From Ischnura elegans (Eukaryota > Arthropoda > Insecta > Odonata > Coenagrionidae), in NCBI RefSeq assembly GCF_921293095.1, contig NC_060251.1, positions 64,869,585 to 64,933,584 on the forward strand: a stretch of 64,000 nt of DNA. The letters run 5' to 3'. Every line of letters starts with the position of its first letter. The first letter of the stretch is position 1. Below the pieces are notes generated by a model that was given only the letters and a program-made list of their open reading frames with translations, was not told the origin of the DNA and did no database searches. Positions 2,333-64,000 of the stretch are shown here, in pieces. Position numbers and translations under genes: made by a program.

Positions 2333-4098
2333 TCATTTATTATTTTCATTTAAATGATCAAAACAATGAGGGCATACAGTTTTCATATGTTTTAAACACA
2401 TAGTTTTTGAACAGCGGCTGCAAAATTGGTTTGTTTTTTTTGTCCATATTTCTAGGGCAAATGGTGCACCTAGCTCTTATTTTCACATCAAACTCACTGT
2501 GCCCCGAAGATGTTGACCCTGAAAGTTTCAAAACTTTCTCACGAAGAGATCTAGGTACAGAATTGCATGCTGCTCTTTTCCTAATCTGTGCATGAACAAG
2601 TTCTCGACCAACCTCTCTCAGAAATAACCGCAGAACCAACTTACGATCGGCATTATTGGACATATAAATTACTTGCGCGTTGATGCCTGCGATATTTAGA
2701 ATCCTAAAAAACATAACTAATGGCCAACGTTTGCAACGTCTCGCAGTGCTGTACGTCGCACACATTTCGTCTACAGTGTCCACTCCTGACTTGGTATAAT
2801 TATAGTCAGTAATGATTTCAGGCTTACGCATTTCTCCTGTCTGTCGTCAATTGAAGCATCATGATGCATAGAAGAAATCATTATAACGTTCCGGTTTTTC
2901 TTCGGAATGTAAGATAAGAGTGTCAAGTGTTTCTGAAAGGCAAAAATGCTAGTTCCTACAGCTCTTTGCTTAGCGTTAGATAATTCTGGCGGAATTTCAA
3001 CCTTGTTTTTCCTCATGGTACCTAAGTATGTTATCCTTTTCTCTAACAAGTCTTGTACCAAGGGAATACTGCTGAACCAATTATCAGCTGTAATATTTCG
3101 TCCAGTGCCTGCCATTGTTTTCGCTAAACGCTTCACAACATCGCATGGCCAATTTGACAGGCGGAAAGGTCCTTCTGGTTTTGTTCCAAGATAAACTTCC
3201 ATAGTCTTTGTGTACATCGATCTGGCATCCGTCAAAGTAAAAACTTTAATCCCATATTTTGCCGGCTTGCTTGGGATGAACTGACGAAAGGGACATTTAC
3301 CTCAAAATGGAACCAATTGCTCATCAATTGTAGTTAGCTCTCCTAAATTGTAATATTTTTCACAGTTAGAGGTAAAAGTTTCAAAAACATTACGGAAAGC
3401 AGTGAATTTGTCATGCTCACGTCTTTGTGGTCTGTCTTTTACGTCATCAAAGCGGACGCAACGCAATAGGAACAAAAATCTTTTCATACTCATTGTAGTA
3501 TAAAATATTTCGATTCCAAACCTGTCTCTATCCCATAAATCACGGATAATTTGATGTCCAGAACGAATGGAATCTGACAAAATAAGAAGACCTATGAAAG
3601 CCTTCATCTCCTCTTCGTCAGCCAATTTTGCATCTCGATCTCTACTGAATAGCAAAGCAATCTGGGAGATGTAAATATTTGTGCATATGGTCACTATACT
3701 TACAGTAGCATCATCTAAAAATAGTCTGTAGCATTCAATAGGGGTTTTTGCATTTATTGCCTGCAGTAATGGTCCCGACGAACTAGACACAATGTTCACT
3801 TGTGGGGTCCTAACTCTGCGTGAAGGTGGAAGCTTTTTCCAACGCGTTACCTATCTTTTCCAACAAAATCTAATGAGGATGACCTATTGGGAGAGTCGTT
3901 GGCACTACACACCTCATCATCAGATGCACCACTTTCTTCTGTCCCCGTATCATGTTCCGACTCACTAAGATGATCCTCTTCCTCCGAAGCAGTAGAATCT
4001 CTTTCATCCTCGGAGGGGATATCCCGAAGAAGGTCAAGGATGCGGTTTCTTTCTCCTTCCTCTTGCTCATTCAACATGTCCGCGAAGGGCAAACTCAA
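2333..4098 (-). pseudogene. piggyBac transposase, frameshifted
   Basis: Read on the minus strand, the protein begins with an acidic N-terminus (MSLPFADMLNEQEEGER...) from 4098. The core carries the three piggyBac catalytic aspartates in context: TIDEQLVPF (first D), ITADNWFSS (second D) and TDYNYTKSGVDTVD (third D). After that come RRCKRWPLVMFFRILNIAG and a C-terminal cysteine-rich domain of the form CxxC...CxxC...H, CPHC, readable to 2333. The frame changes about four times (near 3840, 3300, 2830 and in a run of A near 2437), so it is not translated as one chain. Parts resemble a roughly 580-residue transposase. All catalytic residues are still visible, suggesting modest age. Confidence 0.88.
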
Positions 4099-39512: not shown

Positions 39513-42500
39513 CTGAGAGTAAAAACAGGCACCCTTAATAATTTGAACAAAACTCAGGCGATATTGAAAAATAAATTGTTTCATGAATAAATTTAAACCA
39601 TTTAAATATAAAGAGACTCAAGAGTTACTACATACTAATAGCTAATAGTCACGGACAGGGACGATTGGCGATGGTCACCCACACCTGATAATAAAAATAA
39701 TAAGGTATCTTTATTTGTGCGAGGTTGAGACTAAGTCCCCTCTTCCACCTAACCCCTCGATAGCGTGAATGCATACGTATTTAGAAACGGTAGATAAGCG
39801 TTTACAATACAAAACATGTACAATATACACTATTTGTGAAATGTCACAAAAGATAGATTAAGTACATGTGAAAAATTTGTATAAGAAAAAGATTTCTGTT
39901 TGTGGGAAAAAACATGAAGACAAGAGTGTAGTATCCTTAGTGCTAATGAAAAGTGAATATATATTTATATAACAATTTTAAATATCACATTCTTACTTCA
40001 AACTTGTTCTCTTAGGCATGGAGTTAATGTCTTTTTAATTCAAACTTAATTGAGCTTTAACGCTCAATTAACACCCGACGGGGGAACGCTTCGGAGAAGG
40101 ATTCTTAAATTAATATCTGATTTTTTCACCTGAATCGAGTGCTAAACTCCTGCTGTGCCAAGAAAATGTAACCGTCAACGCCAAAAACAAAAAGACAAAG
40201 AAAACCGAATTCTGTTATAGTTCCCAGGATCTCGCTATAAGTGTTATGCACATTCACGGAAATACCTAACTTATCACCACAGCTGTGTTTGCATGTTTCA
40301 AGAACCGAGTTTTCTATTTAAAGGAAACCCAGGACACTGTTTTATAACTGCAGTTAGCATTTTGATTTTAGCATTGCAGATGAACTACAACAATTTTAAA
40401 TCCAAATATTTAATTAATGTACTAACATCCATCCGAGCATCAGCTATGATGCTAAATTCGTCTGAAATTGCGAAATGAACCTCAATCTCAAGGAATATTG
40501 ATTCCATTAACATAACAAGGCTTAAAAATACACGTGGTCCGTATGGAAAATCATCACCATCGACCCCAAAAAATTAAGTAATCGTTATCCCTCCATAACG
40601 CTAAACACATCACCACTGCACAATTTACGAATTTTGTCAGAGAGGACGACTAAATTAAAATTTTTATAGTTTACACGTGGCGTAAAATCGCCAACTTCAA
40701 TGAATTGAATGATATAACACTGAAATAATTTACTTACATCTCCCCGCACGGGGGGAGGAGAGTTAATCTCTTCCTTTGGGGAGCCGCGCCCCCACGGACC
40801 CGAGCCCACCGAGGAGAAAAGCTCGTTAAAAAACCCCGTCGCTCGCTTGGATAGTGTCCAGACAGCATGTGACTCTGCTGCTCTGAGTAGCCGTAAGATC
40901 TGGCGTCCAGAATCACCCACGTGTTTGCCGTGCGTGGAGACCCGTACGTGGGGGAGAAGGGGATCCTGGTGGGTGAGCTCTCCGGCACCCAGCTGGGCGT
41001 CAGATACCCGGTATGGGCCGGAGTTCAACACCCCACTTCGGCCCTGGATTCCCCGCAAAACGGGCGGCCGAGAAGAGCCCAGCTCGGTCAATCGGCTCCT
41101 GGCGGCTGGGGAGCTTGGCGGCTCCTTCCGAGCGTACGCCAGGACGGGTTAGTGCTGGAGATATGGGGGTCTCCGTAGGGCGGCTGAAGGCGTGTGGGTT
41201 CGGAGGGCCCCCGCGCTGGAGGTTCTAACCCGAAAGAGACCCCCTTTCGAAGGTTCCTATGTCCCTTGGGTAGCCCTGGCGACCACACCGAATCTCGGTG
41301 TGGCGTCCCGAATGTGTGGCTCCGTGGTGGGTGGGGAGCCCAGGGGATGAAATATAACGTAGCATGGAGTCTGAAATTCTTCCTCCACCAAAGAGATCCC
41401 GCCCGGACACGGGCGGAGGAGAACAGTTATTCGAAAGAGCAAAACGGTTTCTGTCATTGAAATGCTCCAAGGACGGCGAAAATTTGAAAAAGGTTTCTCC
41501 CTTCTTCATTAAAAAAGCACTTCAAGCCATCATTCCAGGAGAGCCAAACTCAGTAAAGAAACTTAGAGATGGTTCCCTATTAATCGAAACAGCCAATAAC
41601 GTACAAGCCGAAAAATTGTTAAAAGTAGAAAAGTTGCACGATATACCAATCAATGTCGAGATCCACCGTACTCTAAATACATCTAGGGGTGTGATAAGCC
41701 ACTACGACCTACTATATGTCGAACCAGACGAAATTAAGAAGGAGATGGCTTCCCAGGGTGTCATTGATTGTCGACGACTTACAACGAAGCGTAACGGTGA
41801 AGTGATTAATACTACCTAGGTAATCCTCACGTTCGGTTTGGATAAAATCCCGAGCAAAGTCTACCTAGGCTATGAATCGGTACCTGTGAGACCTTTCTTT
41901 CCCAACCCGATGCGTTGCTTTCAATGCCAAAAATTCGGCCACATCGCACCGCGATGTGAGGGCAAGAACACCTGCCCGCGCTGTGGCAAGGACAAGCATG
42001 ACGGTGAGAAATGTTCATCGGAGCCTTACTGCGTCAACTGCGAGGGCACGCATCCATCGTACTCCCGAGATTGTCCCGTCATGAAAGATGAAAGGAGGAT
42101 AATGGAAATAAAGACCCTGGAAAGAATCCCCTACTCCGAGGCACGAATGAAATACCGGTCACAGATGGCCCCAACATTTTCAAAATCGTATTCGCAAATA
42201 GTCGCAACCACCACTAAAAAAACTACATGTACCATCTCTACTCAGACTTATAATGATTTTCGCATTGAGAGCACGAAGATGCCCACACGAGAACAAAAAA
42301 AAAACAGAAAAGCAAATTAATAAAGTCACAGACAGGAAAAGTCATTCTAAGGCGGTTTCCCCTAAGAAAAACCCAAAATCTACTTCTGAGGATGCTGGGA
42401 ATAAGCGGGATAAAACACCCACATCCTCTAAAGATGCACAATATGATGCCATGGAAGAAGACCTCTGTGTCTCGGACACAGAAGTGTTCCAGGCCAGGAT

Positions 42501-45500
42501 AAAGCAGAGGAAACAGCGGTTAAAACGTTGATCCTCCGCTCACTGTGTACATACGTACATTTCCAGATTTTAACCTATTTATTTATTTATTTTAACAATT
42601 TAAACCATGAATTTTATTCTACAATGGAATATGAATGGTTTTTATAGGCACAAGGAGGAGCTGGTTGTTTTAATTAGAGACTATAACCCCGTCTGCATAT
42701 GCCTGCAAGAGACGCATTTTAAGCTGACAGACAAGACCGTTTTAAAAGGTTTTAAATTTTTTAGACTTGACGACACCAGTGGTCAGAGAGCCCAGGGTGG
42801 AGTGGCAATTGCTATTCGGGAGGCCCTATACACCTCACGAGTGCAATTGGACACTCCGCTGCAGGCAATTGCAGTGACAGTACACGCACCCGAGGCAATT
42901 ACTCTCTGCAACGTATATCTGCCGGAAGGTGCACCTGTGAGTCGAGTTAATTTAGAATCCCTCGTTCGTCAGTTACCTCGGCCCTATGTTTTAATGGGTG
43001 ACTTCAACGCACACGACACCCTATGGGGTAGCTCAAGAACTCAGTGCAATCAAAGGGGACACATAGTCACAAATTTTATCAATGACCTTAACTTGTTTTT
43101 ACTAAACACCGGTGAAAAAACTCGATTCAACAGCTTCAACGGTACCTTCTCGTGTATCGACTTAAGTATTTCGACAGGTGGCCTAATGCCTAGGCTTGAG
43201 TGGTCCGTACATAAAGATTTATGCGGTAGCGACCACTACCCTATTTTAATAACTAAAGGTGGCGGTTTTATCCACCGTCCGACTCAACCAAGCAATTGGG
43301 TTGTCCGCAAGGCCAATTGGTCTCTTTTTAAAAGAAATTTTTATTTTAACCACGACGACAATGTGAATGGTGTGGGGAACATAAAAGTACTCACAGATAA
43401 CATTCTAGAAGCCGCAAATTCCACCGTACCCCGTTCTAAATGCAAATCTCACAGGCCCACAGTTCCTTGGTGGAACGAGGAGTGCGCAAAAGCTATACAG
43501 GTGCGAAAGAGGGCACTCCGAATCTTTAGCAAATATCCTACGGCGACAAATCTCACCGCCTTCCGGCGCCTCAGAGCGAAAGCTCGGCAAGTGGTTAAGG
43601 AGGCCAAGAAAGCTTCGTGGGAGGAGTTTGTGTGTTCTATAAACCACAGGACTCCCATATCCAACATCTGGAGGAAGATTAAAAGCATCTCTGGCTCTAA
43701 CCACAACCCTGCAATTTCATCCCTGAAGGAGACTGACCGAGTTCTGACGACACCTCCCGAAATAAGCGAGTGCTTTGGACGTCGACTTGCGGAGACGAGT
43801 CGTAACGGCAGCTACGACGAACCATTTAGAACACTGAAAGAGCAGAATGAGACGATACCTCTTACCTTTAACCCGAGAGACTCTGGCGAGGTTTACAACG
43901 ACCCCTTTTCTCTGTGGGAGTTGACCTCCGCCATCCTCGAATCCCGTGACGGCTCACCAGGAATAGATAAGGTGCATAACGCTTTTCTAAGAAATCTTCC
44001 CAAAGAAGCACTCCCCCATATGCTGCGATCCCTTAACCAAATTTGGTCAGAGGGTAGTTTTCCAGACCCTTGGAGGGAGTCCATAGTCGTACCCATCCTT
44101 AAACAAGGAAAAGATGGATCGGACCCAAACAACTATAGACCGATATCTCTCACCAGCTGCGTATGCAAGGTGATGGAAAGAATGGTCAACCGTCGTCTCG
44201 TTTGGTGGTTGGAGCGGCGGAACCTTCTTTCGGATATCCAGTGCGGCTTTCGACGGGATAGGTCAACCTCCGACCATCTCGTCAGGACTGACAGTTTCAT
44301 TCAGGAAGCATTTCTCTTGCGGCAAAATGTAATTGGCGTGTTCTTCGACTTAGAGAAAGCGTATGACCGTGTTTGGCGGTACAAAATTCTGAAGACACTT
44401 GATAAATGGGGGTTTAAAGGAAATCTACCTATTTTCATTAAAAATTTTCTGTATGCCCGAGTTTTTAAAGTTAGAATAGGTGAATATCTATCTACCTTAT
44501 ATCCACAAGAAAATGGAGTACCCCAGGGGTCCGTACTGAGCGTGACCCTATTTGTCATTGCGATAAACGATGTGACCGAGTGTATCCGCTCCCCAGTTAT
44601 GGGCTCCTTGTTTGTTGATGACCTCGCAATTTTCTGCAGGTCATCAAAATTAACGAATGCCTCTAGGCTGATCCAGCTGACTCTGAATAAGCTCTCCGTT
44701 TGGTCTCAGAGGAATGGATTCCGTTTCTCTACTGAGAAAACGAAATGCATTTACTTTTACCGAGGACGGGGTGCACAAGCCCCACCGTCCCTATATCTCA
44801 ATGGTAATGAGCTTCCTTTCGTTGAAAACGCCCGATTTCTGGGTATGACATTGGACCGGCGCCTGAATTGGCGCGAACATTTCCGAGCTCTAAGAGACAA
44901 ATGCTTCAAAGTTCTGAACATATTACGGTTTCTGTCACATTCGACATGGGGCGCGGATCGTACCTCAATGCTTATGCTGTATCGAGCATTAGTACGTTCA
45001 AGGCTAGACTACGGATCGATTGTGTACTCATCCGCCCGTGAGACCTACATGAAACCGCTCTCGACGGTTCATAATACGGGACTGCGTTTAGCAACCGGTG
45101 CCTTCAGGACCTCCCCTGTCTTGAGCATTTACGCCGATACAGGAGAGCCTCCCCTAGTCAATCGCAGAGAGACGTTGATGTGCAATTATGCCACAAAAAT
45201 TTTATCCGCGCCGAACCACCCCTGTTTTAACATTATTTCTCACCCACTGCTTTTAGACCTTTTTAACCGAAAGACAAGATCCACTAAACCTCTAAGTGTT
45301 CGCTTCAGAAACCTAATCGCAGAACGCAATTTTACCTTGCCCGCCACGTACCCCACTGGGTACAGCAACGTGCCGCCGTGGTTAATTCCCCGGCCAGCTT
45401 TGAGACTTGATCTTACTCGCTGCTCTAAATCTACTACTATGCCGGGAGAATACCAACAACTTTTCAAGAAATTCCGCGCCGAAAACTCCGAATCTACGTT

Positions 45501-46597
45501 CGTATACACTGACGGTTCGAAATCGGATACCGCCTGTGGGTGCGCTGTGGTATCCCCATATCATGGAGTCCTCAAGGCAAAATTGCATCCGTACTGTTCC
45601 ATTTTTACGGCTGAGCTCACTGCCATTAGGATTGCTCTCCGATCCATTAAAAACAGTGTTGCGTCATTTATGATCTGCACAGATTCATACAGTGCTCTCC
45701 AATCCATATCTCTTTATTCTCCTTATCACCCCATTGTTCAGGACATACAAAGCGCTCTGTTATCCCTGAGTAAAAAAGGGACCACTATAAGCTTCGCTTG
45801 GGTCCCTGGACATGTGGGCATACCAGGGAATGAGAAAGCAGATTCTGCAGCCAAAGATGCGCTCAGGTCTCCGGATACAGATTTTCAGTTAATGCCAGCG
45901 GAAGATTTAGGGAATGCCATGAGGGGTATGATTAGACAAATTTGGAAGACGCAATGGCTCGAAATCCAAAATAACAAACTTCGGGAAATTAAGCCCGTAA
46001 TAACTGCGTGGCAGACCTCTATAAGAAATGTCCGCAGGGAGGAAGTGGTTTTAACACGCTTAAGAATTGGTCACTGCTTATTAACCCATTCATACCTCTT
46101 CACCGAAGAGAGAATACAGCCCCAATGCTTAAATTGCGATTGTCCACTAACAGTGCGACATATCCTGACGGACTGTGCAAGATATCGTACTGCACGGGTG
46201 AATCACAACCTCGGAGTCAACCTAGCTGAGGTACTAGGAGACACTCCCGAAAACATTTCCCGACTGATAGCATTCCTACACTCAACTCGACTTTTCAATA
46301 AAATATAAATGATACCTCTTGTAAATTATTGACACGTTAATTTCAGAACGGGCCTAATCCCCTTTATCAATACCAGTCAGTGAGTGGTGCAAAATGGCCT
46401 TAGCCGCCGACGCACCCTATAAAATAAACACTACTACTACTACTACTTACATCTGCTAAAGAAGCAGCCATTTCCTTCAGGGCAGCATTCCTCTTCTCCT
46501 TATTTTGGTATTCTGGGGATAAGATTTCGTAGAGGCACCTATTTTCTTCATATGCATTAATTAAGAGTTCCACTGCTTGTCTACTCCAGGAGGCCAT
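39252..46597 (-). CDS. MADF-domain (Myb/SANT-like) gene, two exons
   Basis: Exon A, 46597-46451, starts MASWSRQAVELLINAYEENR and continues CLYEILSPEYQNKEKR to AASLAD. This is the first part of a MADF DNA-binding domain (LIxxYxxxxxLWxxxxxxYxNKxxR). Its donor GAT|GTAAGT is in phase 0. Exon B, 39512-39252, follows a TTTTTACTCTCAG acceptor and gives VRPGTSQEDIRAKINALRAQ, FMAERNRMRRGEKGGAGLDD, the usual second part, then diverges to a stop. Joined, they form one MADF domain. LINE copy 1 fills the intron. Such proteins are transcription-factor-like or transposon-associated; which one is not clear. Exon B may have another 3' end. Confidence 0.72.
39600..40731. other. Intron of the MADF gene left of LINE copy 1
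   Basis: AT-rich sequence. I see no exon or element. A short inverted stem around TTGAGCTTTAACGCTCAA lies near 40050. Confidence 0.45.
40732..40741. repeat. Target-site duplication of LINE copy 1, left
   Basis: ACTTACATCT, repeated at 46445-46454 on the far side of the element. The last two bases may belong to the element, so the duplication is 8-10 bp. Confidence 0.85.
40740..41363 (+). promoter_or_regulatory. 5' UTR of LINE copy 1
   Basis: GC-rich leader almost identical to 60714-61334. LINEs of this group start from an internal promoter, expected here, but I see no motif that fixes it. Overlapping short frames on both strands are composition artefacts. Confidence 0.6.
41364..42531 (+). 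pseudogene. LINE copy 1 ORF1 (nucleic-acid-binding protein)
   Basis: The protein starts MESEILPPPKRSRPD. Residues ~158-240 carry three zinc knuckles: CFQCQKFGHIAPRC, CPRCGKDKHDGEKC and CVNCEGTHPSYSRDC, which bind the element RNA. Compared with copy 2, a single TCG to TAG change makes a stop at 41817-41819, so only the first 151 residues are made from the start codon. The frame then stays open to 42320. A run of ten A at 42295-42304 separates it from a basic 3' frame that ends at 42531. Confidence 0.9.
42607..46308 (+). CDS. LINE copy 1 ORF2 (endonuclease, RT, RNase H), intact
   Basis: 1233 codons without a stop. Residues 1-230 are the APE-type endonuclease (LQWNMNGFYRHKEEL, CLQETHFK, GDFNAHDTLWGS, GSDHYPI). 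Reverse transcriptase is at about 440-740, with YRPISLTSCVCKVMERM, FFDLEKAYDRVW, NGVPQGSVLS and the catalytic FVDDLAIF near 668. RNase H is at about 962-1095: FVYTDGSKSD, FTAELTAIRIAL, CTDSYSAL and WVPGHVGIPGNEKAD. A CxxC...H...C motif follows near 1174 (CLNCDCPLTVRHILTDC). Catalytic residues of all three enzymes are present. The protein nicks target DNA and copies the element RNA by target-primed reverse transcription. Confidence 0.95.
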   Translation: MNFILQWNMNGFYRHKEELVVLIRDYNPVCICLQETHFKLTDKTVLKGFKFFRLDDTSGQRAQGGVAIAIREALYTSRVQLDTPLQAIAVTVHAPEAITLCNVYLPEGAPVSRVNLESLVRQLPRPYVLMGDFNAHDTLWGSSRTQCNQRGHIVTNFINDLNLFLLNTGEKTRFNSFNGTFSCIDLSISTGGLMPRLEWSVHKDLCGSDHYPILITKGGGFIHRPTQPSNWVVRKANWSLFKRNFYFNHDDNVNGVGNIKVLTDNILEAANSTVPRSKCKSHRPTVPWWNEECAKAIQVRKRALRIFSKYPTATNLTAFRRLRAKARQVVKEAKKASWEEFVCSINHRTPISNIWRKIKSISGSNHNPAISSLKETDRVLTTPPEISECFGRRLAETSRNGSYDEPFRTLKEQNETIPLTFNPRDSGEVYNDPFSLWELTSAILESRDGSPGIDKVHNAFLRNLPKEALPHMLRSLNQIWSEGSFPDPWRESIVVPILKQGKDGSDPNNYRPISLTSCVCKVMERMVNRRLVWWLERRNLLSDIQCGFRRDRSTSDHLVRTDSFIQEAFLLRQNVIGVFFDLEKAYDRVWRYKILKTLDKWGFKGNLPIFIKNFLYARVFKVRIGEYLSTLYPQENGVPQGSVLSVTLFVIAINDVTECIRSPVMGSLFVDDLAIFCRSSKLTNASRLIQLTLNKLSVWSQRNGFRFSTEKTKCIYFYRGRGAQAPPSLYLNGNELPFVENARFLGMTLDRRLNWREHFRALRDKCFKVLNILRFLSHSTWGADRTSMLMLYRALVRSRLDYGSIVYSSARETYMKPLSTVHNTGLRLATGAFRTSPVLSIYADTGEPPLVNRRETLMCNYATKILSAPNHPCFNIISHPLLLDLFNRKTRSTKPLSVRFRNLIAERNFTLPATYPTGYSNVPPWLIPRPALRLDLTRCSKSTTMPGEYQQLFKKFRAENSESTFVYTDGSKSDTACGCAVVSPYHGVLKAKLHPYCSIFTAELTAIRIALRSIKNSVASFMICTDSYSALQSISLYSPYHPIVQDIQSALLSLSKKGTTISFAWVPGHVGIPGNEKADSAAKDALRSPDTDFQLMPAEDLGNAMRGMIRQIWKTQWLEIQNNKLREIKPVITAWQTSIRNVRREEVVLTRLRIGHCLLTHSYLFTEERIQPQCLNCDCPLTVRHILTDCARYRTARVNHNLGVNLAEVLGDTPENISRLIAFLHSTRLFNKI
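46445..46454. repeat. Target-site duplication of LINE copy 1, right
   Basis: ACTTACATCT. Read on the minus strand this is the last four exon bases plus the GTAAGT donor of the MADF exon A. Confidence 0.85.
46451..46597 (-). CDS. MADF gene exon A
   Basis: Forty-nine codons, MASWSRQAVELLINAYEENR through MAASLAD. The last 4 bases of the exon and the GTAAGT donor lie within the LINE target duplication. Confidence 0.72.
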
Positions 46598-47861: not shown

Positions 47862-48335
47862 CCTTGTGTAACAGTGGGATGTCCGTCGTCGACTACTTCT
47901 TTGTAGACGTTGTCGGCGCTCATCAGCTCGTGCAGGCATCCTTTGCACGAGTAGAGCACTGTTTATTTGCTTGATGTTAACATTTAAAGTGGAGAGAATC
48001 GCTCCCTTTGCGCAGAGCTCGTGTTGGCTCGATGGAAAGACGTCGTCGATAAGTTGCCGCGGAGATGTCTCAGCCCTAAGTCCTCGAAGGGGTATCAGCA
48101 TCTCCTATAACCGTCCCTCGCCGTAGGAAATGGAGTCAATGGTGCCGTTGCCTACCTGGAGGAGGAAGTCCAAGTATTCCTTGCAAGTACTCGTTCGCTG
48201 CGGCGTTGTCGAGGAAAATACCTTGAATGCCACATCGATGACGACAGCAGGGAAACACGATACATCTATGGAGATACGCGCTTTTTCCATGACGGGCGCG
48301 ATTTGCCTGAAGTCACCGAAACAGACGAATATCTT
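47862..48335 (-). pseudogene. Helitron helicase fragment, middle
   Basis: Minus-strand frames read KIFVCFGDFRQIAPVMEKAR, CFPAVVIDVAFKVF, EYLDFLLQVGNGTIDSI and SPRQLIDDVFPSS, then GAILSTLNVNIKQINSALL. These are helicase motif III (GDFRQ) and the following conserved blocks. The Walker A region that should precede them is missing. Confidence 0.8.
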
Positions 48336-48746
48336 CGTGCACTGTGATTTCTATGCGTCTCATGGTGATAATCCCCCGATTCAAATAATTCCGCCTATAC
48401 TGAACGAAACCTCTTCCGTCCACGTGAGTTGTTTCGCAAGACAGCTTCGGATAGAATTTACCGTAACAACCTATCGCCTCATCCCAAAATGGAAAGTCGG
48501 TGCGGTAGTCTCTACTACACGGGCCGTGGATCATGTGTTGCAACACTAGCTTCCTAAGTTGTCCACCCGCCTCGTCTTCAGAGGGTATGTCTGCGCGAAT
48601 CCCCTAGTCGATTTATTCCGCTTGTACCAGTCCTCCATCTTGAAAACTAAGTGCGCGTGAGGCAAACCCCGCATTTGCAATTCGATGACGTAAACGAAGT
48701 ACGAGGGGCGCCCGAAAAATGCTTCGCTACGCAAATCCCTGATCAA
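48313..48746 (-). pseudogene. Helitron Rep nuclease fragment with HUH motif
   Basis: FFGRPSYFVYVIELQMRGLP followed by HAHLVF is the HUH rolling-circle nuclease motif of Helitron Rep. Downstream comes LQHMIHGPCSRDYRT with GKFYPKL and GRGFVQYRR, all typical of the family. The catalytic tyrosine region that should follow is deleted. Two frame changes are seen. Confidence 0.85.
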
Positions 48747-48885
48747 TTCCCCGAGCTTTATGCTGAATATCGTGCAGGTGGTGGAAGGGTCTTCGCGCTT
48801 GCTTCTGTGGGTTTCTTTCTATTTTCCTTCCAGTGAGCGTTTTACGTAACCCTGAGGAAGTACGTTGGTGATCCACACCGCGAAA

Positions 48886-49755
48886 CTAGAGACATGGCGT
48901 TCTCGTAGTGGGCCTTAATGCATCGCGGACATCCGGAGAACGTGCTCGGAAAGTGAATCTTTCCCGGACGCACGCCGCCTCCTCCTTGAACTGCCGTCGA
49001 ACGTGTCCTTGTTGCAGCCTTCCTACGTCAATGAGGTCGTCCATAGGTGCGATCCGCATGGTAGTTGCGGAAGAAGAGTGCATCTGGGAATAGCAGATGA
49101 AACGGAGCCGCTCTTCTTCGTACCGGGCGAACATTTCCACTTGCCACGCCTGCGACAAACGTCCCAAGTGGGAAAATCCGGTATCGGGCAGCAGCAGGCA
49201 TCTTGCGTAGTTGAACTGGGTGAATTTTCTTCCTCGATTGTCCTTCAATCCCGCGTGCCATCCCAAATTCCCGTGGTGGTAGAGCAAGGGATATTGGAAA
49301 TGCTCCATTAGTGTACTCGGGAGGTCTATGGACGACGGTCTTTGGTCACCCCTCTTCCAAACTCAATTTTCTGGCATCGTGTGCTATATTCTCCTTCCTC
49401 ATGGCGGCGTGCTCCTCGATACCACTTTGCTTATTCCCAAGTGTCGGACCGTGAGTAGATCTACTGTTCACTTTGATAGTCAGGTGAGCGTCGATTGAAG
49501 GCTCCGCACTTAGGCGACGTAATTCCTCTATTAACGGATTCACATTTCTGATATACTTATCAATTTATTCAATGGCGTACATGTTAAGCGTTCTTCCAAG
49601 CGCTGTTTCTTCTTTCTTCGCCGTCGTCGATGTAAAGGAGGCAACGGTTCACAACTGAGTAATACCTCCTCTCGTGGTGAACATTTGTCCACGAGCTACG
49701 GCGTGCACATGGTGAAACATTCTACCTTCTAACTTAAAACATGACAGTCCACTTG
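48886..49755 (-). pseudogene. Helitron N-domain, part after the P insertion
   Basis: Fragments EGRMFHHVHAVARGQ, NVNPLIEELRRLSAEPSIDA, HLTIKVNSRSTHG, then HFQYPLLYHHGNLGWHAGLK, FNYARCLLLPDTGFSHLGRL and WQVEMFARYEEERLRFICYS. This is the Helitron_like_N domain, in three frames. Confidence 0.82.
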
Positions 49756-49763
49756 GGTGCCTG
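49756..49763. repeat. 8-bp target duplication of the P element, left
   Basis: GGTGCCTG, identical to 54554-54561. P elements duplicate 8 bp. Confidence 0.95.
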
Positions 49764-50651
49764 CAAGGCCATAGATAGAAAGGTTCAGACAACTCGCGAT
49801 GGCGGCCATTTTGTGGCCTAGAGCAGACAGCTTCTACTGTAATAAAGCTACACCTGCTACATGAGAAACACCTACGTTACGTCCTTATACAAAGGATTCC
49901 CTAAAAAAATGCGACGTTAGCTTTAGAAAACGTACGTTTAAACATTTAGGAAAATAAATATATAAGAATGAAGACATAACTAGCTGGCTGCAAATAAAAC
50001 TGTGAGGAACGAAGTTCTGATATCCAGCGAATAATATGATCATAAAAAAGGTAATTACCGATGTCACGGGAGTCAAATCATGAAAAATTGATCCCATGTA
50101 CTCAAAAATAAAGCTCTCACAAGTTGTATCACTGGTGAATTGAAGTGATTGACTTCAGACTGACTGATATATACTACACAATGTGATGAAAATTTCCATA
50201 CCCTCATGAACAATAACGAAAATTATTACATTTTTTTCTAAAAAATAAATGGGAAGCTCTATAAATTGATCGTATTTCATATAACTGTATATACTGTAAT
50301 AAATATTACCTAATGACCCGACCAATAACGTAATCCACCAAAGTTCAATTTAGAATATAGTAAGCTTATATAGATGATGATTTTCAGATTGTTATGGGAA
50401 CTCATAGCAATGTTAATCTAGCAATAAGTAGCTAGCAACTTCATCAAAACGTTGAGAGACAGCAGCCTGGTCCTAAAGAATATATTAAAGATAACATTCT
50501 TACGATAATTTCCATTTGAAAGTAAAAAATTACCCACTAACCTTGTGGATGCACTGATTATGAAAATGTCATCAAGAAGAGCCATCTGGAAAGGAATGTC
50601 AAACAATACCCATAAAAAATGAAATAACAATGTCAAATGAAATAATTTTAT

Positions 50652-53600
50652 TTAAACGATTTTCCTCATATGTACACTCCTACTGCCATGGCCCATTGAC
50701 CGGTCAGATTTGGTCAATTTCTCCGTTACTGACTTAGAATGAAAAAGAATTCTTAGGATAAAAAATTTCCTAAGAAATAGCAACTTCAAGTCATGACAAT
50801 ATGTAACTCTGTGCACGTCACTTACCACAGAATTACACATGTCTTCCACCACATTTACCCCCTGTTGCAAAAGAATACTCTTCTTCCCTTGGAAGACCTT
50901 TTCAGCCTCATTTGCCAAGTCCCAACACCACTTACTACTCAGCACCAAAGACCCCTCGTGCTGTTCTTTTGCAATGAGTAAGTCTTTTACTGACTCGGGA
51001 ATATCACTCCCATCCCCACACAGAACTCCCTTGCGAATATCGCAGCTTATTTTTTTCAATATCTGCCTCACAATAAACCCACAAAGGTAATAAAGGGAAT
51101 TGATCTCCACGTCACTCAGCTCCAATTCAGGGATTTCAACTTGTGTGTGGTCATCTTCACCTCCCACCCCATGACCCACCACATCAAAAAAATCAGCGAG
51201 CATATTGCCCTCATCTGCTTCGCAATTACTCCTTGGGGGAATGATCGTGGACTGCCCTATGCTTATGTTTTTCATTGCCACCTTGAATGCAACAGTGGAT
51301 GGGATGGGGTTCTTCACTCTCACAGTGGAGAAAAGATTTTCCAGAGAATCCTGGCAGAATCTGGAAGTGAGAACGTAACCGAAACACTTTTTGCTCAGAA
51401 GATCATTTTGAAGGTTCAAAATTGAAGCTGTCGTCAATTTAACACCTGTTTGAACAGGCTTCCACTTCCCATCTCCTATTTTAACTTTTTCAAAAAAAGT
51501 ATCAAAGTCTTTGAGAGTTTGAATCAAACTCTCATAGACATCAATTCTATTCTTGCTCAGAGCCATAACAGGATTCCTGGAGCACATTAGTGAGAACCAC
51601 TTGTCGATGCACTCAAAAAACCAATCAGTAGTCAAATAGCTGTCATTCCAATTATAGTTTTTGACACAAAACCTAATTCCAGCTGCTACATCCCTGCTCA
51701 TTAGCTCACACACAGTTCTTACCCTAATCTTCTGGAAGTGTTTCACAAAAATGTGCTTCTCAGTCAGCTTGGGAACTAATTTAAGATCCTTGTCCCCTTG
51801 CAACTGGGCAAGTTTCTTCACTGGTTCCAAAAACACCCTCCCGTCACTTAAGCCATTTTCTTGCACAACATCATCTGACAAAACTATGCACCCACCATCC
51901 GGAAGATGGTTTCGAATGTTTTTTAGGAGATGGCAAATATCAGCCATGAAATAAATGTTGTCACTGGGGTTGCATGGATGGGGGATGGAATTAATAGTTT
52001 GAGAGTATTTCCCGCATGTAATTCCGAATTCCCTCCAAACGGCCATATTGCTGCTCCCCATATCCGAGGTCACACACACAACAGTAAGCCCTATTTCAAA
52101 TGACATTTTAATCAATTTTAAAATCACTTCTTTGGCTTCCACACTAGGGAAGGAATTACCTGTAAAATGATATGCAACAGTCTGTTTCCACCTGGTGGAA
52201 ACCCCTGCCAACATGAAAACAAGAGCATGAGAAGCAATAAATCCATTGGCAGTAATGTGCAGTACCCATACATTGTCTTTGAACTCATGTCTAATTCTAT
52301 CTTTGGCTCAATGGCCATCTCATCAAATAAAATAACGCATAACTTCTCTGTATCGCTCAAAAGAGCCACCTTCAACTTGAGGAATTCTAATACCTCCTTT
52401 TGTTTTCTAGGATGAAACTTAACATTTTCCAAGCGCCTTGTAAGGGTTCGATCACTTGGAAGCGGGTACTGCAATTTTAAAAGGTTGTTGTAACCTTTAA
52501 CACCACATGCAAATCGAATTTGAAGAGCTGTTTTACAAGTGGAATTACACCACTTCTGGCCCCTGGTTGACTTTTTCCCCAATGCCTGGATTTAGTCATG
52601 ATTGAGGAAGACATTTAGGTTTCGTGTGGTTTCCTCCAAGGAAGACTCCAATTTCTTCACCTTCCTCTGCAATAGAGATATCTTCAATTTCAGTCTTCTA
52701 ATGATCTCATCTTTATCAGCCTCATCATTCTCATTGCTAACATCTCCCAACAGATCCTCGGGAACATTCTCCTCTCCCTCAAGCACCATGGTGATATCTT
52801 CATGACAGCTAAGAACTGCTAGAACCATAACGAAAAAAAAATATATAATATCAGACAGAGAAACATTAGTTTGTATAAATAAAAGGAAAATGAGTACCTA
52901 TCACACTAATTGCCCTTTATTGTTTCCATAGAACACCAAATTTGCCTAATCAATGCAACAAATACTGCTGAAAAGAATAATTAAAATACCACAACTAATA
53001 GTAAACTTCATATTTCACTCATTTTTCCTAGGACAAGTAAGAAGTATAATAATGGCTATAAAATATGATCATTATGATGAAGTAAAACAAAAAATATTTT
53101 CCCACCCACCCACCCATTATTAAAATTAAAATTATTTTTGATGCTACGAGACATGCTACGCAAACTTCATGTTAGTTAAAAGCTAAACACAATACCCTTT
53201 GAATTTTTCTTAGGAACATGGAACATACACTAACCACTAACAAGAATATTATTTTTGATGCAAAAACCCTACCTACCATACATGCTATGCAAACTTCATA
53301 TTAGTTCAAAGCTAAACACAATGCCCTTTGAATTTTCCTTATAGTCATTGAACATACACTTACAACTAACATGAAAATTATTTTTGATACTACCAGACAT
53401 GCTATTCAAAGTTCATATTAGTTCAAAGCTAAACACAATGCCCTTTGAATTTTTCTTATAGTCATTGAACATAAACCTACAACTAACATGAATATTATTT
53501 TTGATGTAAGAACACCACCTACCAATAATGCAATTCAAACTTCATATTAGTTCAAAGCAATTGCTTTTGTTTGTAAATGTTTTTAAACATAATACCCTGT

Positions 53601-54342
53601 AAATTTTCCTCTCTACAAACTCCTAAATCATACCTTACAAAAGACATGAAAATTCTACCTAAAAAAATACACTGGCAATACAACAAATTTAGTTATGTCT
53701 TCCATTAAGTGATAATCTAATACCCGGATTTTTTTTTAAATTTTGTGATATGTTTACTTACCCTCGTTCGTGTTTAATTCTGTCCTTTGACTTAAAGTTT
53801 CACGCTTGGTGGGTGGTTTTCTCGGTGTCTTCATTGGACGATGTGGAAATATCTCAGGAACTGCAAAAGGTTTCAGAAATCTTCGGCCGTCCATTCTGTT
53901 ATTCTCGAATTGTGACGAATCAAAATGGACCTGAAATAAGAACACTCATTATTTTGTGGAAGTATAAGCCTCACTTTTAAGTTCACAGAATCTATCTGCG
54001 GTATTGATGCCGAGTTACAAATGTAATTCCTACTAATTTGTGTTTACGAAGTGAACTTGAATCATGTTATGTGCATATCTAACTCTCGCATTAATGACGT
54101 ATATGAAATATAGAATGAACAACAACTGTAAATTATAACCATCTTCATAAAAACTAGAGCTTTAGCCTACTAAATTTACTGATACTCACCTCACATAGCC
54201 TGCTGGACGTTGTCGGTTCCCAATGGTCTCGCCGAAGCTTAGCCGGCCAAATTTTCCTTCTTGAGGCATCAGCAGGGAATCGGAAGAGCCTGAAGCCTTT
54301 ATCGGCTCGATTATTGCAACCTACCGCACAACAACAAGGCAT
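50652..54342 (-). pseudogene. P-element transposase (THAP9-like), nearly intact
   Basis: Exon 1, 54342-54190, MPCCCAVGCNNRADKGFRLF to SSRLCE, and exon 2, 53930-53762, VHFDSSQFENNRMDGRRFLK and PFAVPEIF, together make a complete C2CH THAP zinc domain with the AVPxIF end. Exon 3 starts at 52818 with a leucine-zipper stretch (IIRRLKLKISLLQRKVKKLE). The catalytic part follows: LCVILFDEMAIEP, HALVFMLAGVSTRWKQTVAY, CVTSDMGSSNMAVWREF, LLKNIRNHLPDGG and RFCQDSLENLFSTVR. Splice sites are canonical. I see one in-frame TAA (after FLNHD, near 52590) and one frameshift near 52280. The TAA could alternatively lie in an unrecognised intron. Confidence 0.92.
53131..53600. repeat. ~117-129-bp tandem repeat, about four units, in a P-element intron
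   Basis: ATTATTTTTGATGC-like starts occur at 53131, 53248, 53377 and 53494. Each unit contains CATATTAGTTCAAAGCTAAA and AATGCCCTTTGAATTTT. Lies between exons 2 and 3 of the transposase gene. Confidence 0.85.
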
Positions 54343-54553
54343 GATTGCCTTACGTCTTCCAAAAGAGAAAGCAAAATAGCGTGGCCTGTTGGCGTAGAGC
54401 CTCAACACGTAGACATCGGACTCTAAGAAGAGTTAAAATGAAAAATGAGAGCTCTGAAAAGAGCTGTGATGAGTGATCGATGGAAGTCCTTAAAAGAACT
54501 TTTTGATGAATAGATGAAACGATGATGTCTGAACCTTTCTATCTATGGCCTTG

Positions 54554-54561
54554 GGTGCCTG
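54554..54561. repeat. 8-bp target duplication of the P element, right
   Basis: GGTGCCTG, copy of 49756-49763. Confidence 0.95.
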
Positions 54562-54860
54562 TACCCACCACTGACCTCTAGCGCATAGATGGCGAACAGA
54601 TCGTTGTGCGCTCGCTATCTATCCAAGAATGCTCTATTCGAATAAAACGGTGCGTCTAGAGAAGGCAGCCGCTGCACATTGAACGGTCCCTCCCCGCAGC
54701 ACCACTTTCTACGTTCCATCTCGTCGAAAAGCCTCGCGCCACAGTCGGTACATCGGTGCACGCCTTCTTCCCAAAGTGATATCCTCTTCAGCTTGAAGGG
54801 CGCGACGTCGTCCAGTGCCGTTCCTTCCCAATAGGGCCATAGCTAACTCTTCTTTCCTAG
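54562..54860 (-). pseudogene. Helitron N-domain, part before the P insertion
   Basis: Minus-strand frame KRISLWEEGVHRCTDCGARL, FDEMERRKWCCGEGPFNV and LPSLDAPFYSNRAFLD. The CxxCGA...CCG pattern is the zinc motif that opens the Helitron_like_N domain, and the text continues across the P element at 49755. Confidence 0.75.
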
Positions 54861-54949
54861 AACAGCGGGAATGTGCCTCATGGTCTGTAACGGTCTGGTC
54901 CGGATTACGCAACCTATACCTCAGCGGCGTCTGCCGCAATGCCTCCGGA

Positions 54950-55200
54950 TTGCTCACGTGCTGACGACGAACAGCACTCTTGTTAACCTCTGGGTGCTCA
55001 GTGGCGTACTTTTACACGGCTTCCCTATTAACCTCCGGGTGCTCAGTGGCGTACCTCTTAACGGATTCCCTACTCACCTCCGGGTGCTCTGTCGCGTACC
55101 CCTTTAAAGCTTCTCAATGCATTCCTGGATGCTCTTGGCTGTAGCGACGAACTGCCCCCAGGTTCACGTCTGGTTTCTTCGTTGCATATTTCTTTTTGGC
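54950..55200 (-). repeat. 14-residue coding repeat (42 bp) in the Helitron
   Basis: Minus-strand frame contains RYSQEHPGMH, GYATEHPEVSRESVK, RYATEHPEVNREAV and KYATEHPEVNKSAVR in succession, about five units of consensus YATEHPEVNREAVK. The third and fourth units are nearly identical at DNA level, so the array expanded late. Function unknown. Confidence 0.8.
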
Positions 55201-55506
55201 AGCTGCTTACTGATCACCTCTCGTCGTATCGAGTACCTTCGGTCTTCCATGTTTGGCCTCCTTGGGACGACCCTTTTATTTTCCAGTCACAGGAGGAGCA
55301 GCGTGTGGTTTATATTACGGAGTTACCTAATATGTCAACCGGTTTCATGTGTAGCAGATTGTGATCGTGAGTGATGGTGGTCCGTGAATACCTGTAATTT
55401 CTGTAACGCTGATCGTCCTTTGGCTACACGCTGCAATTGTTAAATGTAAGAAGCATAGAGGCCAGTGATGCCTACGTGTGACATACAAACTGGCCCTACC
55501 CTCGAC

Positions 55507-56040
55507 TCAGGTTCGGTAGTCGTGGTCCACCGCGTGAGAGTCGAATAAGTAAATTTCACATCGGCGCCGAAAGGTAACTGAACGGCAACGACCGTTGAAA
55601 ATGAAAAGAATGTCATTTTCAAAATGTGATAGTAGTTTCTCAAGGACAACCGATAGTGACCTGACATATCCCTCGACATCAGAGACAGTAAGCGGATATA
55701 TGCCGTAGTGCACGTCCGATACGTCGATATTGACTACGTTTCCCATTACTTTTAATATCCCGGGTAATTCTTCCGGATAAAGGTAACGTTCTACGCCTCC
55801 GAAGGAATCGCCTCGCAAATTTCTATAGATCCTGTTTCTGCAGAAAAGGAGTGAATTTATTACATCCGTGTTGAAATTTCCACCGATTAAGCCCCACCCT
55901 GCCGCGTAGGAAGAGTTCACAACGCATTGTCCACCTGCACTCCAACCGAAATGTTCGTAGTTGCCCTGATGAAAAGACGCCACAGCAACGCAGGAGAACC
56001 GCCTAGAACGGGTATGCTTCGCGGAAGACAAAAAAGGATA
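55507..56040 (-). pseudogene. Cysteine-peptidase-like ORF of the Helitron
   Basis: The frame 56082-55507 has CVAVASFHQGNYEHFGWSAG then GQCVVNSSYAAGW, ERYLYPEELPGIL, and near the end EIYLFDSHAVDHDYRT; a second frame continues VGPVCMSHVGITGLYASYI. The Gln-Cys of GGQC and the Asp-x-His of FDSHA are spaced as the active site of papain-fold or deubiquitinase-like peptidases I recall next to Helitron replicases. The exact family is uncertain. It is upstream of, and collinear with, the Helitron Rep. Only one frame change is seen, so it is better kept than the Rep-helicase part. Confidence 0.6.
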
Positions 56041-60640: not shown

Positions 60641-61334
60641 ATAGGCATGAGTAATTGAGTAAATTCATTTTAAGGCACTATATACGGCAATATGCCTTCA
60701 AGACAATGGCTTGCTCCCCGCACGGGGGGAGGAGAGTTATCTCTTCCTTTGGGGAGTCGCGCCCCCACAGACCCGAGCACACCGAGGAGACAAGCTCGTA
60801 AAAAAACCCCGTCGCTCGCTCGGATAGTGTCCAGACAGCATGTGACTGCTGCTCTGAGTAGCCGTAACATCTGGCGTCCAGAATCACCCACGTGTTTGCC
60901 GTGCGTGGAGACCCGTACGTGGGGGAGAAGGGGATCCTGGTGGGTGAGCTCTCCGGAACCCAGCTGGGCGTCGGATACCCGGTATGGGCCGGAGTTATAC
61001 ACCCCACTTCGGCCCTGGATTCCCCGCAAAACGGGCGGCCGAGAAGAGCCCAGCTCGGTCAATCGGCTCCTGGCGGCTGGGGAGCTTGGCGGCTCCTTCC
61101 GAGCGTACGTCAGGACGGGTTAGTGCTGGAGATATGGGGGTCTCCGTAGGGCGGCTGAAGGCGTGTGGGTTCGGAAGGCCCCCGCGCTGGAGGTTCTAAC
61201 CCGAAAGAGACCCCCTTTCGAAGGTTCCTATGTCCCTTGGGTAGCCCTGGCGACCACACCGAATCTCGGTGTGGCGTCCCGAATGTGTGGCTCCGTGGTG
61301 GGTGGGGAGCCCAGGGGATGAAATATAACGTAGT

Positions 61335-62291
61335 ATGGAGTCTGAAATCCTTCCTCCACCAAAGAGATCCCGCCCGGACACGGGCGGAGGAGAACAGTTA
61401 TTCGAAAGAGCAAAACGGTTTCTGTCATTGAAATGCTCCAAGGACGGCGAAAATTTGAAAAAGCTTTCTCCCTTCTTCATTAAAAAAGCACTTCAAGCCA
61501 TCATTCCAGGAGAGCCAAACTCAGTAAAGAAACTTAGAGATGGTTCCCTATTAATCGAAACAGCCAATAACGTACAAGCCGAAAAATTGTTAAAAGTAGA
61601 AAAGTTGCACGATATACCAATCGATGTCGAGATCCATCGTACTTTAAATACATCTAGGGGTGTGATCAGCCACTACGACCTACTATATGTCGAACCAGAC
61701 GAAATTAAGAAGGAGATGGCTTCCCAGGGTGTCATTGATTGTCGACGACTTACAACAAAGCGTAACGGTGAAGTGATTAATACTACCTCGGTAATCCTCC
61801 CGTTCGGTTTGGATAAAATCCCGAGCAAAGTCTACCTAGGCTATGAATCGGTACCTGTGAGACCTTTCTTTCCCAACCCGATGCGTTGCTTTCAATGCCA
61901 AAAATTCGGCCACATCGCACCGCGATGTGAGGGCAAGAACACCTGCCCGCGCTGTGGCAAGGACAAGCATGACGGTGAGAAATGTTCATCGGAGCCTTAC
62001 TGCGTCAACTGCGAGGGCACGCATCCATCGTACTCCCGAGATTGTCCCGTCATGAAAGATGAAAGGAGGATAATGGAAATAAAGACCCTGGAAAGAATCC
62101 CCTACTCCGAGGCACGAATGAAATACCGGTCACAGATGGCCCCAACATTTTCAAAATCGTATTCGCAAATAGTCGCAACCACCACTAAAAAAACTACATG
62201 TACCATCTCTACTCAGACTTATAATGATTTTCGCATTGAGAGCACGAAGATGCCCACACGAGAACAAAAAAAAAACAGAAAAGCAAATTAA
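61335..62291 (+). CDS. LINE copy 2 ORF1, intact
   Basis: 318 residues, MESEILPPPKRSRPD... through three CCHC knuckles (CFQCQKFGHIAPRC, CPRCGKDKHDGEKC, CVNCEGTHPSYSRDC) to NRKAN. The stop seen in copy 1 is TCG here. The same run of ten A (62266-62275) precedes the end, and a basic frame continues one phase over. It is the RNA-binding chaperone of the LINE particle. The start was chosen by identity with copy 1 and the position after the 5' UTR. Confidence 0.92.
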   Translation: MESEILPPPKRSRPDTGGGEQLFERAKRFLSLKCSKDGENLKKLSPFFIKKALQAIIPGEPNSVKKLRDGSLLIETANNVQAEKLLKVEKLHDIPIDVEIHRTLNTSRGVISHYDLLYVEPDEIKKEMASQGVIDCRRLTTKRNGEVINTTSVILPFGLDKIPSKVYLGYESVPVRPFFPNPMRCFQCQKFGHIAPRCEGKNTCPRCGKDKHDGEKCSSEPYCVNCEGTHPSYSRDCPVMKDERRIMEIKTLERIPYSEARMKYRSQMAPTFSKSYSQIVATTTKKTTCTISTQTYNDFRIESTKMPTREQKKNRKAN

Positions 62292-62582
62292 TAAAGTCAC
62301 AGACAGGAAAAGTCATTCTAAGGCGGTTTCCCCTAAGAAAAACCCAAAATCTACTTCTGAGGATGGTGGGAATAAGCGGGATAAAACACCCCACCCACAT
62401 CCTCTAAAGATGCACAATATGATGCCATGGAAGAAGACCTCTGTGTCTCGGACACAGAAGTGTTCCAGGCCAGGATAAAGCAGAGGAAACAGCGGTTAAA
62501 ACGTTGATCCTCCGCTCACTGTGTACATACGTACATTTCCAGATTTTAACCTATTTATTTATTTATTTTAACAATTTAAACC

Positions 62583-64000
62583 ATGTATTTTATTCTACAA
62601 TGGAATATGAATGGTTTTTATAGGCACAAGGAGGAGCTGGTTGTTTTAATTAGAGACTATAACTCCGTCTGCATCTGCCTGCTAGAGACGCATTTTAAGC
62701 TGACAGACAAGACCGTTTTAAAAGGTTTTAATTTTTTTAGACTTGACGACACCAGTGGTCAGCGAGCCCAGGGTGGAGTGGCAATTGCTATTCGGGAGGC
62801 CCTATACACCTCACGAGTGCAATTGAACACTCCGCTGCAGGCAATTGCAGTGACAGTACACGCACCCGAGGCAATTACTCTCTGCAACGTATATCTGCCG
62901 GAAGGTGCACCTGTGAGTCGAGTTAACTTAGAATCCCTCGTCCGCCAGCTACCTCGACCCTATATTTTAATGGGTGACTTCAACGCACACGACACCCTAT
63001 GGGGTAGCACAAGAACTCAGTGCAATCAAAGGGGACACATAGTTACAAATTTTATCAATGACCTTAACTTGTTTTTACTAAACACCGGTGAAAAAACTCG
63101 ATTCAACAGCTTCAAAGGTACCTTCTCGTATATCGACTTAAGTATTTCGACGGGTGGCCTAATGCGTAGGCTTGAGTGGTCCCTACATAAAGATTTATGC
63201 GGTAGCGATCACTACCCTATTTTAATTACTAAAGGTGGCGATTTTATCCACCGTTCAACTCAACCAAGCAGTTGGGTTATCCGCAAGGCCAATTGGTCTC
63301 TTTTTTAAAGAAAATTTTATTTTAACCACGACGACAATGTGCATGGTGTGAGGAACATAAAAGTACTCACAGATAACATTCTAGAAGCCGCAAATTCCAC
63401 CGTACCCCGTTCTAAATGCAAATCTCACAGGCCCACAGTCCCTTGGTGGAACGAGGAGTGCGCAAAAGCTATACAGGTGCGAAAGAGGGCACTCCGAATA
63501 TTTAGCAAATATCCTACGGCGACAAATCTCACCGCCTTCCGGCGCCTCAGAGCGAAAGCTCGGCAAGTGGTTAGGGAGGCCAAGAAAGCTTCATGGGAGG
63601 AGTTTGTGTGTTTTTTATAAACCACAGGACTCCCATATCCGACATATGGAGAAAGGTTAAAAGCATCTCTGGCTCTAACCACAACCTTGCAGTTTCATCC
63701 CTGAAGGAGACTGACCGAGTCTTGACGACACCTCCCGAAATAAGCGAGTGCTTCGGACGTCGACTTGCGTAGACGAGTTGTAACGGCAGCTACGACGAAC
63801 CATTTAGGACACTGAAAGAACAGAATGAGACGATACCTCTTACCTTTAACCCGAGAGACTCTGGCGAGGTTTACAACGACCCCTTTTCTCTGTGGGAGTT
63901 GACCTCCGCCATCCTCGAATCCCGTGACGGCTCACCAGGAATAGATACGGTGCATAACGCTTTTCTAAGAAATCTTCCCAAAGAAGCACTCCCCCATATG
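62583..64000 (+). pseudogene. LINE copy 2 ORF2, broken and partial
   Basis: MYFILQWNMNGFYRHKEELV opens the endonuclease domain, complete to GSDHYPI. The frame breaks near 63306, where copy 1 TTTTTAAAAG is TTTTTTAAAG, again near 63615 in a T-run, and a GAG to TAG change is seen near 63770. Reverse transcriptase and RNase H lie beyond the window. Unlike copy 1, this ORF2 cannot make the full protein. Confidence 0.9.

Follow-up and report, generated by a model that had tools for sequence, protein, structure and literature searches.

P elements owe their fame to flies, in which they are the standard example of horizontal invasion and hybrid dysgenesis. The damselfly Ischnura elegans is a member of the Odonata, which split early from the other winged insects, and a 64,000-nucleotide stretch of its chromosome 6 (64.87–64.93 megabases, Mb; hereafter the window) carries what looks like a nearly intact P element inserted into a Helitron. 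Does such an element mark a recent arrival, a copy that can still move, a host gene derived from a transposon, or an ordinary member of a resident family? Our reading, to which we assign a probability of about 0.92, is that a P transposon of a family that we call family A sits in the Rep gene of a resident Helitron, that this copy is now defunct, and that the family has recently been mobile.

The element is 4790 base pairs (bp) long, with its transposase on the minus strand (coordinates are collected in Table 1). Its terminal inverted repeats lie 4734 bp apart and are complementary at 28 of 28 bp, and the 8 bp that flank them, GGTGCCTG, are identical on the two sides, forming a target-site duplication (TSD). 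The perfect 28-bp repeats and the perfect 8-bp duplication reported in a preliminary description of this locus thus hold base for base, and they agree with the 8-bp TSD and the terminal inverted repeats of roughly 13–31 bp by which the P superfamily is recognised. Across the assembly (1,722,721,009 bases in 110 contigs), the 28-mer has 10 matches at two mismatches or fewer, two of them being the window's own ends; the reversed sequence, used as a control, has none. The same assembly gives four matches to domains of insect odorant receptors.

The state of the site before insertion is preserved elsewhere in the genome. The 364 bp to the left of the element match 31 places, the window included, and 29 of the other 30 were fetched. 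In all 29 the right flank directly adjoins the left with an overlap of exactly 8 bp; joined in this way, with one copy of the duplicated 8 bp, the flanks represent the pre-insertion site. Several of these paralogues are near-identical to one another, and the 29 cases are therefore not independent. The paralogous open reading frame (ORF) runs for at least 1123 amino acids (aa) within the fetched stretch and contains, in paralogue L048, the Helitron_like_N domain (PF14214; expectation value, E, 8.8e-32). By tblastn it maps to window positions 55977–54552 and 49762–48334, on both sides of the insertion, with the P element near residue 501–503 of the Rep frame. While the window's own 158-aa flank ORF has no Pfam match at E 0.1, the Helitron-type Rep domain of the insertion host is identified through L048, and the nesting of the P element in a Helitron, proposed in the preliminary description, is confirmed as far as the Rep gene is concerned.

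The transposase gene has three coding exons, with splice sites read from the sequence. The THAP domain (PF05485) scores 35.7 bits in exon 1 against a cut-off of 23.9; its part in exon 2, taken alone, scores 16.0 bits and stays under that cut-off. In exon 3 the RNase H N and guanosine triphosphate (GTP)-binding domains (PF21787, PF21788) exceed their Pfam cut-offs, and RNase H C (PF21789) falls under its own (16.2 bits, cut-off 24). The 551-aa frame of window exon 3 matches the Drosophila P transposase (PDB 6p5a) at E 3.5e-23, with its second Asp and its Glu aligned; when an uninterrupted family A copy is the query, all three catalytic residues, D, D and E, align. The window contains all three catalytic motifs, spread over two reading frames. 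The N-terminal THAP domain and the GTP-split RNase H domain with D, D, E that define P-superfamily transposases are accordingly present. Exon 3 also contains a coiled-coil-like stretch. A fourth exon was considered and rejected: a GTAAGT-like site near 50826 resembled a splice donor, and the frame downstream of it is kept in a related family (family B, below) to the same stop. Because family B shares the C-terminal frame as far as the stop at 50652, exon 3 is taken as the last coding exon. The number of units in the minisatellite of intron 2 varies among family A copies.

How much of this gene is damaged was judged against two copies with uninterrupted exons, at C16:3.76 Mb and C1:15.19 Mb. 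Compared with these, window exon 3 has one premature stop and one single-base frameshift, near 52252, with no further stop; exon 2 has lost, in frame, one 30-bp unit that two other copies contain. The two coding lesions counted in the preliminary description are therefore borne out. What does not stand is the claim that the element is structurally complete, because 172 bp are missing just inside the right repeat, on the 5' side of the transposase. All four other copies that have this end keep the stretch, the other three being 97% identical to the C16 copy used as query. An uninterrupted frame between two complete ends, as in an autonomous P element, is thus not found in the window copy.

In the other copies GCCATCTTGTGGCCT is found in the 172-bp stretch, 70 bp inward from the repeat, and its counterpart GCCATTTTGTGGCCT lies 13 bp inside the left repeat of the window; a match as good was reached by none of 1000 dinucleotide shuffles. 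The 5' motif is identical in the four copies with that end, and the 3' motif is identical in the window and in the C16, C5, C11, C9 and C6:80.20 Mb copies. This candidate motif therefore stands at both ends in other copies and at one end only in the window copy. We read the pair as subterminal inverted repeats of the kind that P elements typically have (PMC7776569), with GCCATYTTGTGGCCT as a candidate binding sequence of the THAP domain. The motif GGCCACAAGATGGCGGG, in the right-end subterminal stretch of family A copies, may resemble the CTCF core and YY1 motifs.

Family A occupies at least nine places, a lower bound: the window, C16:3.76, C1:15.19, C5:8.51, C9:69.73, C6:80.20, C7:58.74, C1:157.73 and C11:48.29 Mb. 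Perfect 8-bp TSDs surround the window, C16 and C1:15.19 copies, and the C9 copy has flanks matching at 6 of 8 positions; in the sequence fetched for the other five, a single end or no end is seen. In the two most similar copies, C1:15.19 and C5:8.51 Mb, a deletion begins within the left repeat, of which 18 and about 23 bp remain, respectively; that of C1:15.19 is internal. Uninterrupted three-exon frames are found in two copies, C16:3.76 and C1:15.19 Mb. The C16 copy combines such exons with two perfect repeats and a TSD, yet has a 584-bp insertion in its 3' part, the ends of which we take to be Tigger-like.

Divergence among these copies separates the fate of the family from that of the window copy. 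Over exon 3 the window differs from C16 at 68 of 2346 positions (2.90%), from C1:15.19 at 78 of 2208 (3.53%), from C5 at 55 of 1558 (3.53%) and from C9 at 48 of 1125 (4.27%). C16 and C1:15.19 differ at 28 of 2209 positions (1.27%), C1:15.19 and C5 at only 4 of 1519 (0.26%), and C11 is 10.6–11.9% from the other family A copies. The C1:15.19 and C5 stretches are alike only over the 1519-bp piece and have no common flanks; they are therefore separate copies and not a segmental duplication, and two copies this similar without a common flank imply that family A moved recently. The recent activity suggested in the preliminary description consequently holds for the family, through this pair. It does not hold for the window copy, given its distances of 2.9–3.5% (4.3% to C9), its few private changes and their neutral-looking ratio. 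This copy is a dead relic, an ordinary decayed family member 2.9–3.5% from C16, C1:15.19 and C5.

The ratio of nonsynonymous to synonymous substitution rates (dN/dS) is 0.16–0.41 in 9 of 10 pairs of family A copies. Over the part of exon 3 that C9 spans, the window alone has 3 synonymous and 7 nonsynonymous changes, and it shares 11 synonymous and 7 nonsynonymous ones with C9. We read the dN/dS values and these small counts as selection on family A while it was active and probable decay of the window copy without selection. Several observations weigh against this account of the locus. The tenth pair, C1:15.19 and C5, with only 4 differences, has a dN/dS of 0.77; the private changes number only 10; and an unpolarised count over the whole exon, window against two agreeing copies, gives 27 synonymous and 25 nonsynonymous changes plus 3 stop-type sites, one of them a real stop. 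As for the subterminal motif, its 3' member was not found at two mismatches or fewer in C1:157.73 Mb, a copy that keeps its 3' end, and a binding role is argued from position, symmetry and conservation only.

The sequence of events that we propose begins with the entry of a P-superfamily cut-and-paste DNA transposon, of family A, into the Rep gene of a Helitron already resident on chromosome 6, with duplication of 8 bp, as the empty sites show. Judging from the domains, ends and TSDs, the THAP domain of an intact family A transposase would read the subterminal sites, and its GTP-dependent RNase H (DDE) domain would pair the 28-bp ends, cut, and reinsert the element with new 8-bp duplications. 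The stop and the frameshift would then have ended transposase production by the window copy, and the 172-bp deletion took the subterminal motif of one end, so that mobilisation in trans would probably be poor. Family A itself moved recently, and it is one of a far greater number of P lineages that this genome contains.

It is conceivable that the window copy can still be mobilised in trans, its perfect ends and TSD being sufficient and the lost 172 bp irrelevant: both 28-bp repeats are perfect, and two other copies with uninterrupted three-exon frames exist. We consider this improbable. The lost stretch held the 5' member of the subterminal pair, unchanged in all four other copies with that end, and internal sequences next to the repeats serve as binding sites for the P transposase of Drosophila (PMC7776569). 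Far less credible still, to the point of being negligible, is the idea of a domesticated, THAP9-type host gene at this locus. The architecture of a THAP plus a catalytic domain is indeed common to THAP9 (PMC7776569). However, a domesticated gene of this type would have an intact frame and neither terminal repeats nor TSD, and here terminal repeats, TSD, empty sites and broken frames are all found; nor does the 551-aa frame of window exon 3 match the THAP9_C model at E 0.1, though a frame of another damselfly family, D, does. A single-copy host gene or THAP9 orthologue is refuted on these grounds. Other copies with the same ends, the absence of which had been named beforehand as a refutation, were found and favour a transposon: the eight other places in the genome, the TSDs and the empty sites identify a mobile element, and the locus is not a single-copy gene with conserved synteny.

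The origin of family A is a separate matter. The window copy might mark an invasion in which family A lately entered the damselfly lineage from another animal. The small number of copies (at least nine places) and the near-identical pair (4 of 1519 differences) would fit a young family, and recurrent horizontal transfer is favoured for the P elements of Drosophila and of Anopheles, where several P subfamilies coexist (PMC1562414). We nevertheless regard a late arrival as unlikely. The related family B is resident at 14 loci of the same genome and one family A copy is already 10.6–11.9% diverged, which together mean that the lineage as a whole is not newly arrived; and one scan of viral contigs for a carrier gave two pattern matches and no relative. 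Moreover, this genome has P-type transposases of separate lineages in abundance, and no special arrival is needed to account for a near-intact P element in an animal other than a fly. The abundance and depth of these lineages are compatible both with long residence and with repeated arrivals.

These other lineages were followed in some detail. Family B has about 65% DNA identity to family A. Two of its 14 loci are adjacent and probably belong to a single element, and its best members are 97–99% alike. In exon 3, families A and B are identical at 420 of 721 aligned residues, and at 66.6% of a 437-column core. The first Asp motif is present in 11 of the 14 family B loci; L015 has a stop right after it, and L021 and L027 give no match. 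The longest family B open frame seen (741 aa, L016:826-3048) is without three residues including the first catalytic Asp; this frame, although open, is probably catalytically dead.

Family C (L075, L076 and L077) is 6.8–7.0 kilobases (kb) long, begins with CATGATACTAATATAT and ends in the inverse of it, the first 16 bases agreeing at all but one; two copies, at two places, are flanked by the perfect 8-bp TSDs CATAAAAC and ATCTTGGA. These two are 99.87% identical over 4662 bp with identical 739-aa open frames, and the third differs at 4 of 739 residues. The family C frame matches 6p5a at E 1.8e-93. A tandem array of units of about 247 bp lies in the 3' part of the family C element. Family D (L078, L079 and L080) is 6.6 kb long, with 99.71% identity between two copies and 98.4% to the third, 8-bp TSDs ATCCGTAC and GCTTACAC at two places, and imperfect terminal repeats; its 810-aa frame matches THAP9_C at 27.2 bits against a cut-off of 24. 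A tree of five sequences over 437 columns places family C with Drosophila P (support 99), and families A and B apart.

When the P-specific GTP-binding domain was used to search the genome, there were 376 first-look candidates, of which 150 were scored and all 150 exceeded the Pfam cut-off; 42 of these, by hand count, lie in stop-free open frames of 610–926 aa. None of 14 control genomes matched. In some cases two of the 150 matches are the halves of a single domain, and the matches listed include neither the window copy nor family B; the figure is neither an element count nor complete. Several groups among the matches listed have identical scores although they lie at separate places, which suggests recent bursts. 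As a count of lineages, too, the result is a lower bound, drawn from the four families read (A, B, C and D) and the Pfam score list.

Like the P element of Drosophila melanogaster (6p5a), family A has a THAP domain, a GTP-split RNase H domain with aligned D, D, E, an 8-bp TSD and perfect terminal repeats. It differs in having repeats of 28 instead of 31 bp, a length of 4.8 instead of 2.9 kb and three coding exons where Drosophila P has four ORFs (PMC7776569). Its identity to Drosophila P over the 437 columns is 27.2%, and damselfly family C is much closer (37.1%). The Anopheles gambiae subfamilies AgaP2, P3, P4, P8, P12, P13 and P15 share with family A repeats of 27–31 bp, 8-bp TSDs and a THAP domain; all except AgaP3 have three putative exons, and there are several per genome, as in the damselfly (PMC1562414). 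Anopheles belongs to a different insect order, and the likeness is one of description. Zebrafish Pdre2 / THAP9 resembles family A in its 8-bp TSD and in having subterminal inverted repeats, for which family A has a candidate pair, and is a full-length P-type transposase outside flies (PMC10983969, PMC7776569); the Pdre2 terminal repeats measure 13 bp, against 28 bp in family A, and THAP9_C is matched by family D and not by the 551-aa frame of the window. P elements are known in zebrafish (PMC10983969), and the P superfamily is listed among those widespread in arthropods (PMC6327564). A literature search on P elements in Ischnura or Odonata, with subscription journals and bioRxiv outside its scope, found no paper apart from a review of cricket genomes.

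Table 1. Features of the P element copy and its insertion site (positions are those of the window)
Feature	Position	Strand	Evidence
P element copy, 4790 bp	49764..54553	-	terminal repeats, TSD, eight other genome places
Left TSD GGTGCCTG	49756..49763		identical flanks; 8-bp overlap at 29/29 fetched empty paralogous sites
Right TSD GGTGCCTG	54554..54561		identical flanks; 8-bp overlap at empty sites
Left (3') 28-bp terminal inverted repeat	49764..49791	+	repeat comparison
Right (5') 28-bp terminal inverted repeat	54526..54553	-	repeat comparison
Subterminal motif GCCATTTTGTGGCCT, candidate site of transposase binding (3' partner in the subterminal inverted pair)	49805..49819	+	motif match
Junction of lost 172 bp (including 5' subterminal motif)	54525..54526		retained in 4/4 other copies with this end
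Exon 1 (51 codons) with start codon and N-terminal part of THAP (CxxxC)	54190..54342	-	Pfam, copy comparison
Exon 2, THAP C-terminal part (AVPEIF; CxxH completed across splice)	53762..53930	-	Pfam; kept in family B
Exon 3, coiled-coil-like stretch, RNase H with GTP-binding insertion, C-terminus	50652..52815	-	Pfam, copy comparison
Minisatellite, ~117-129 bp units, intron 2	53121..53610		longer array in C1:15.18 Mb copy
Premature stop codon	52592..52594	-	comparison with uninterrupted copies
First catalytic Asp codon	52322..52324	-	motif and alignment of uninterrupted copy
Second catalytic Asp codon	52062..52064	-	alignment to 6p5a, motif
Catalytic Glu codon	51339..51341	-	alignment to 6p5a, motif
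Helitron Rep ORF remnant, N-terminal side	54554..55977	-	tblastn of paralogue ORF
Helitron Rep ORF remnant, C-terminal side, cut by P element	48334..49763	-	empty sites and tblastn of paralogue ORF

The window holds other mobile elements as well. A retrotransposon of the type without long terminal repeats (non-LTR) is present in two copies of the same orientation, at 41358–46308 and 61329–63308. The first has an intact 1234-aa endonuclease-reverse transcriptase-RNase H frame, and because of that it is probably young. On the minus strand at 2358–3850 lies a broken DDE_Tnp_1_7 transposase in three overlapping or adjacent frames, which we take to be of the piggyBac type, and within the minus-strand ORF at 25455–25880 some 45 residues occur twice in nearly the same form, apparently through a short tandem duplication.

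Taken alone, the window copy adds one decayed member of a P family in a damselfly; the more interesting lead is the P-rich genome around it. Here is a non-dipteran insect with many P-type transposases at once, one family of which has TSD-flanked, full-length copies that are 99.87% identical. We would lay even odds on I. elegans being a present-day hotspot of P elements, with dozens of potentially functional transposases from three or more deep lineages (one like Drosophila P, one like THAP9, and A/B), several of them active or very recently so. If that is true, the Odonata would have harboured P elements over the long term, as a reservoir to which horizontal transfers might be traced back. In any case the damselfly offers natural material for studying the coexistence of P lineages, any exchange of P elements between odonates and other insects, and the silencing of P elements outside flies.

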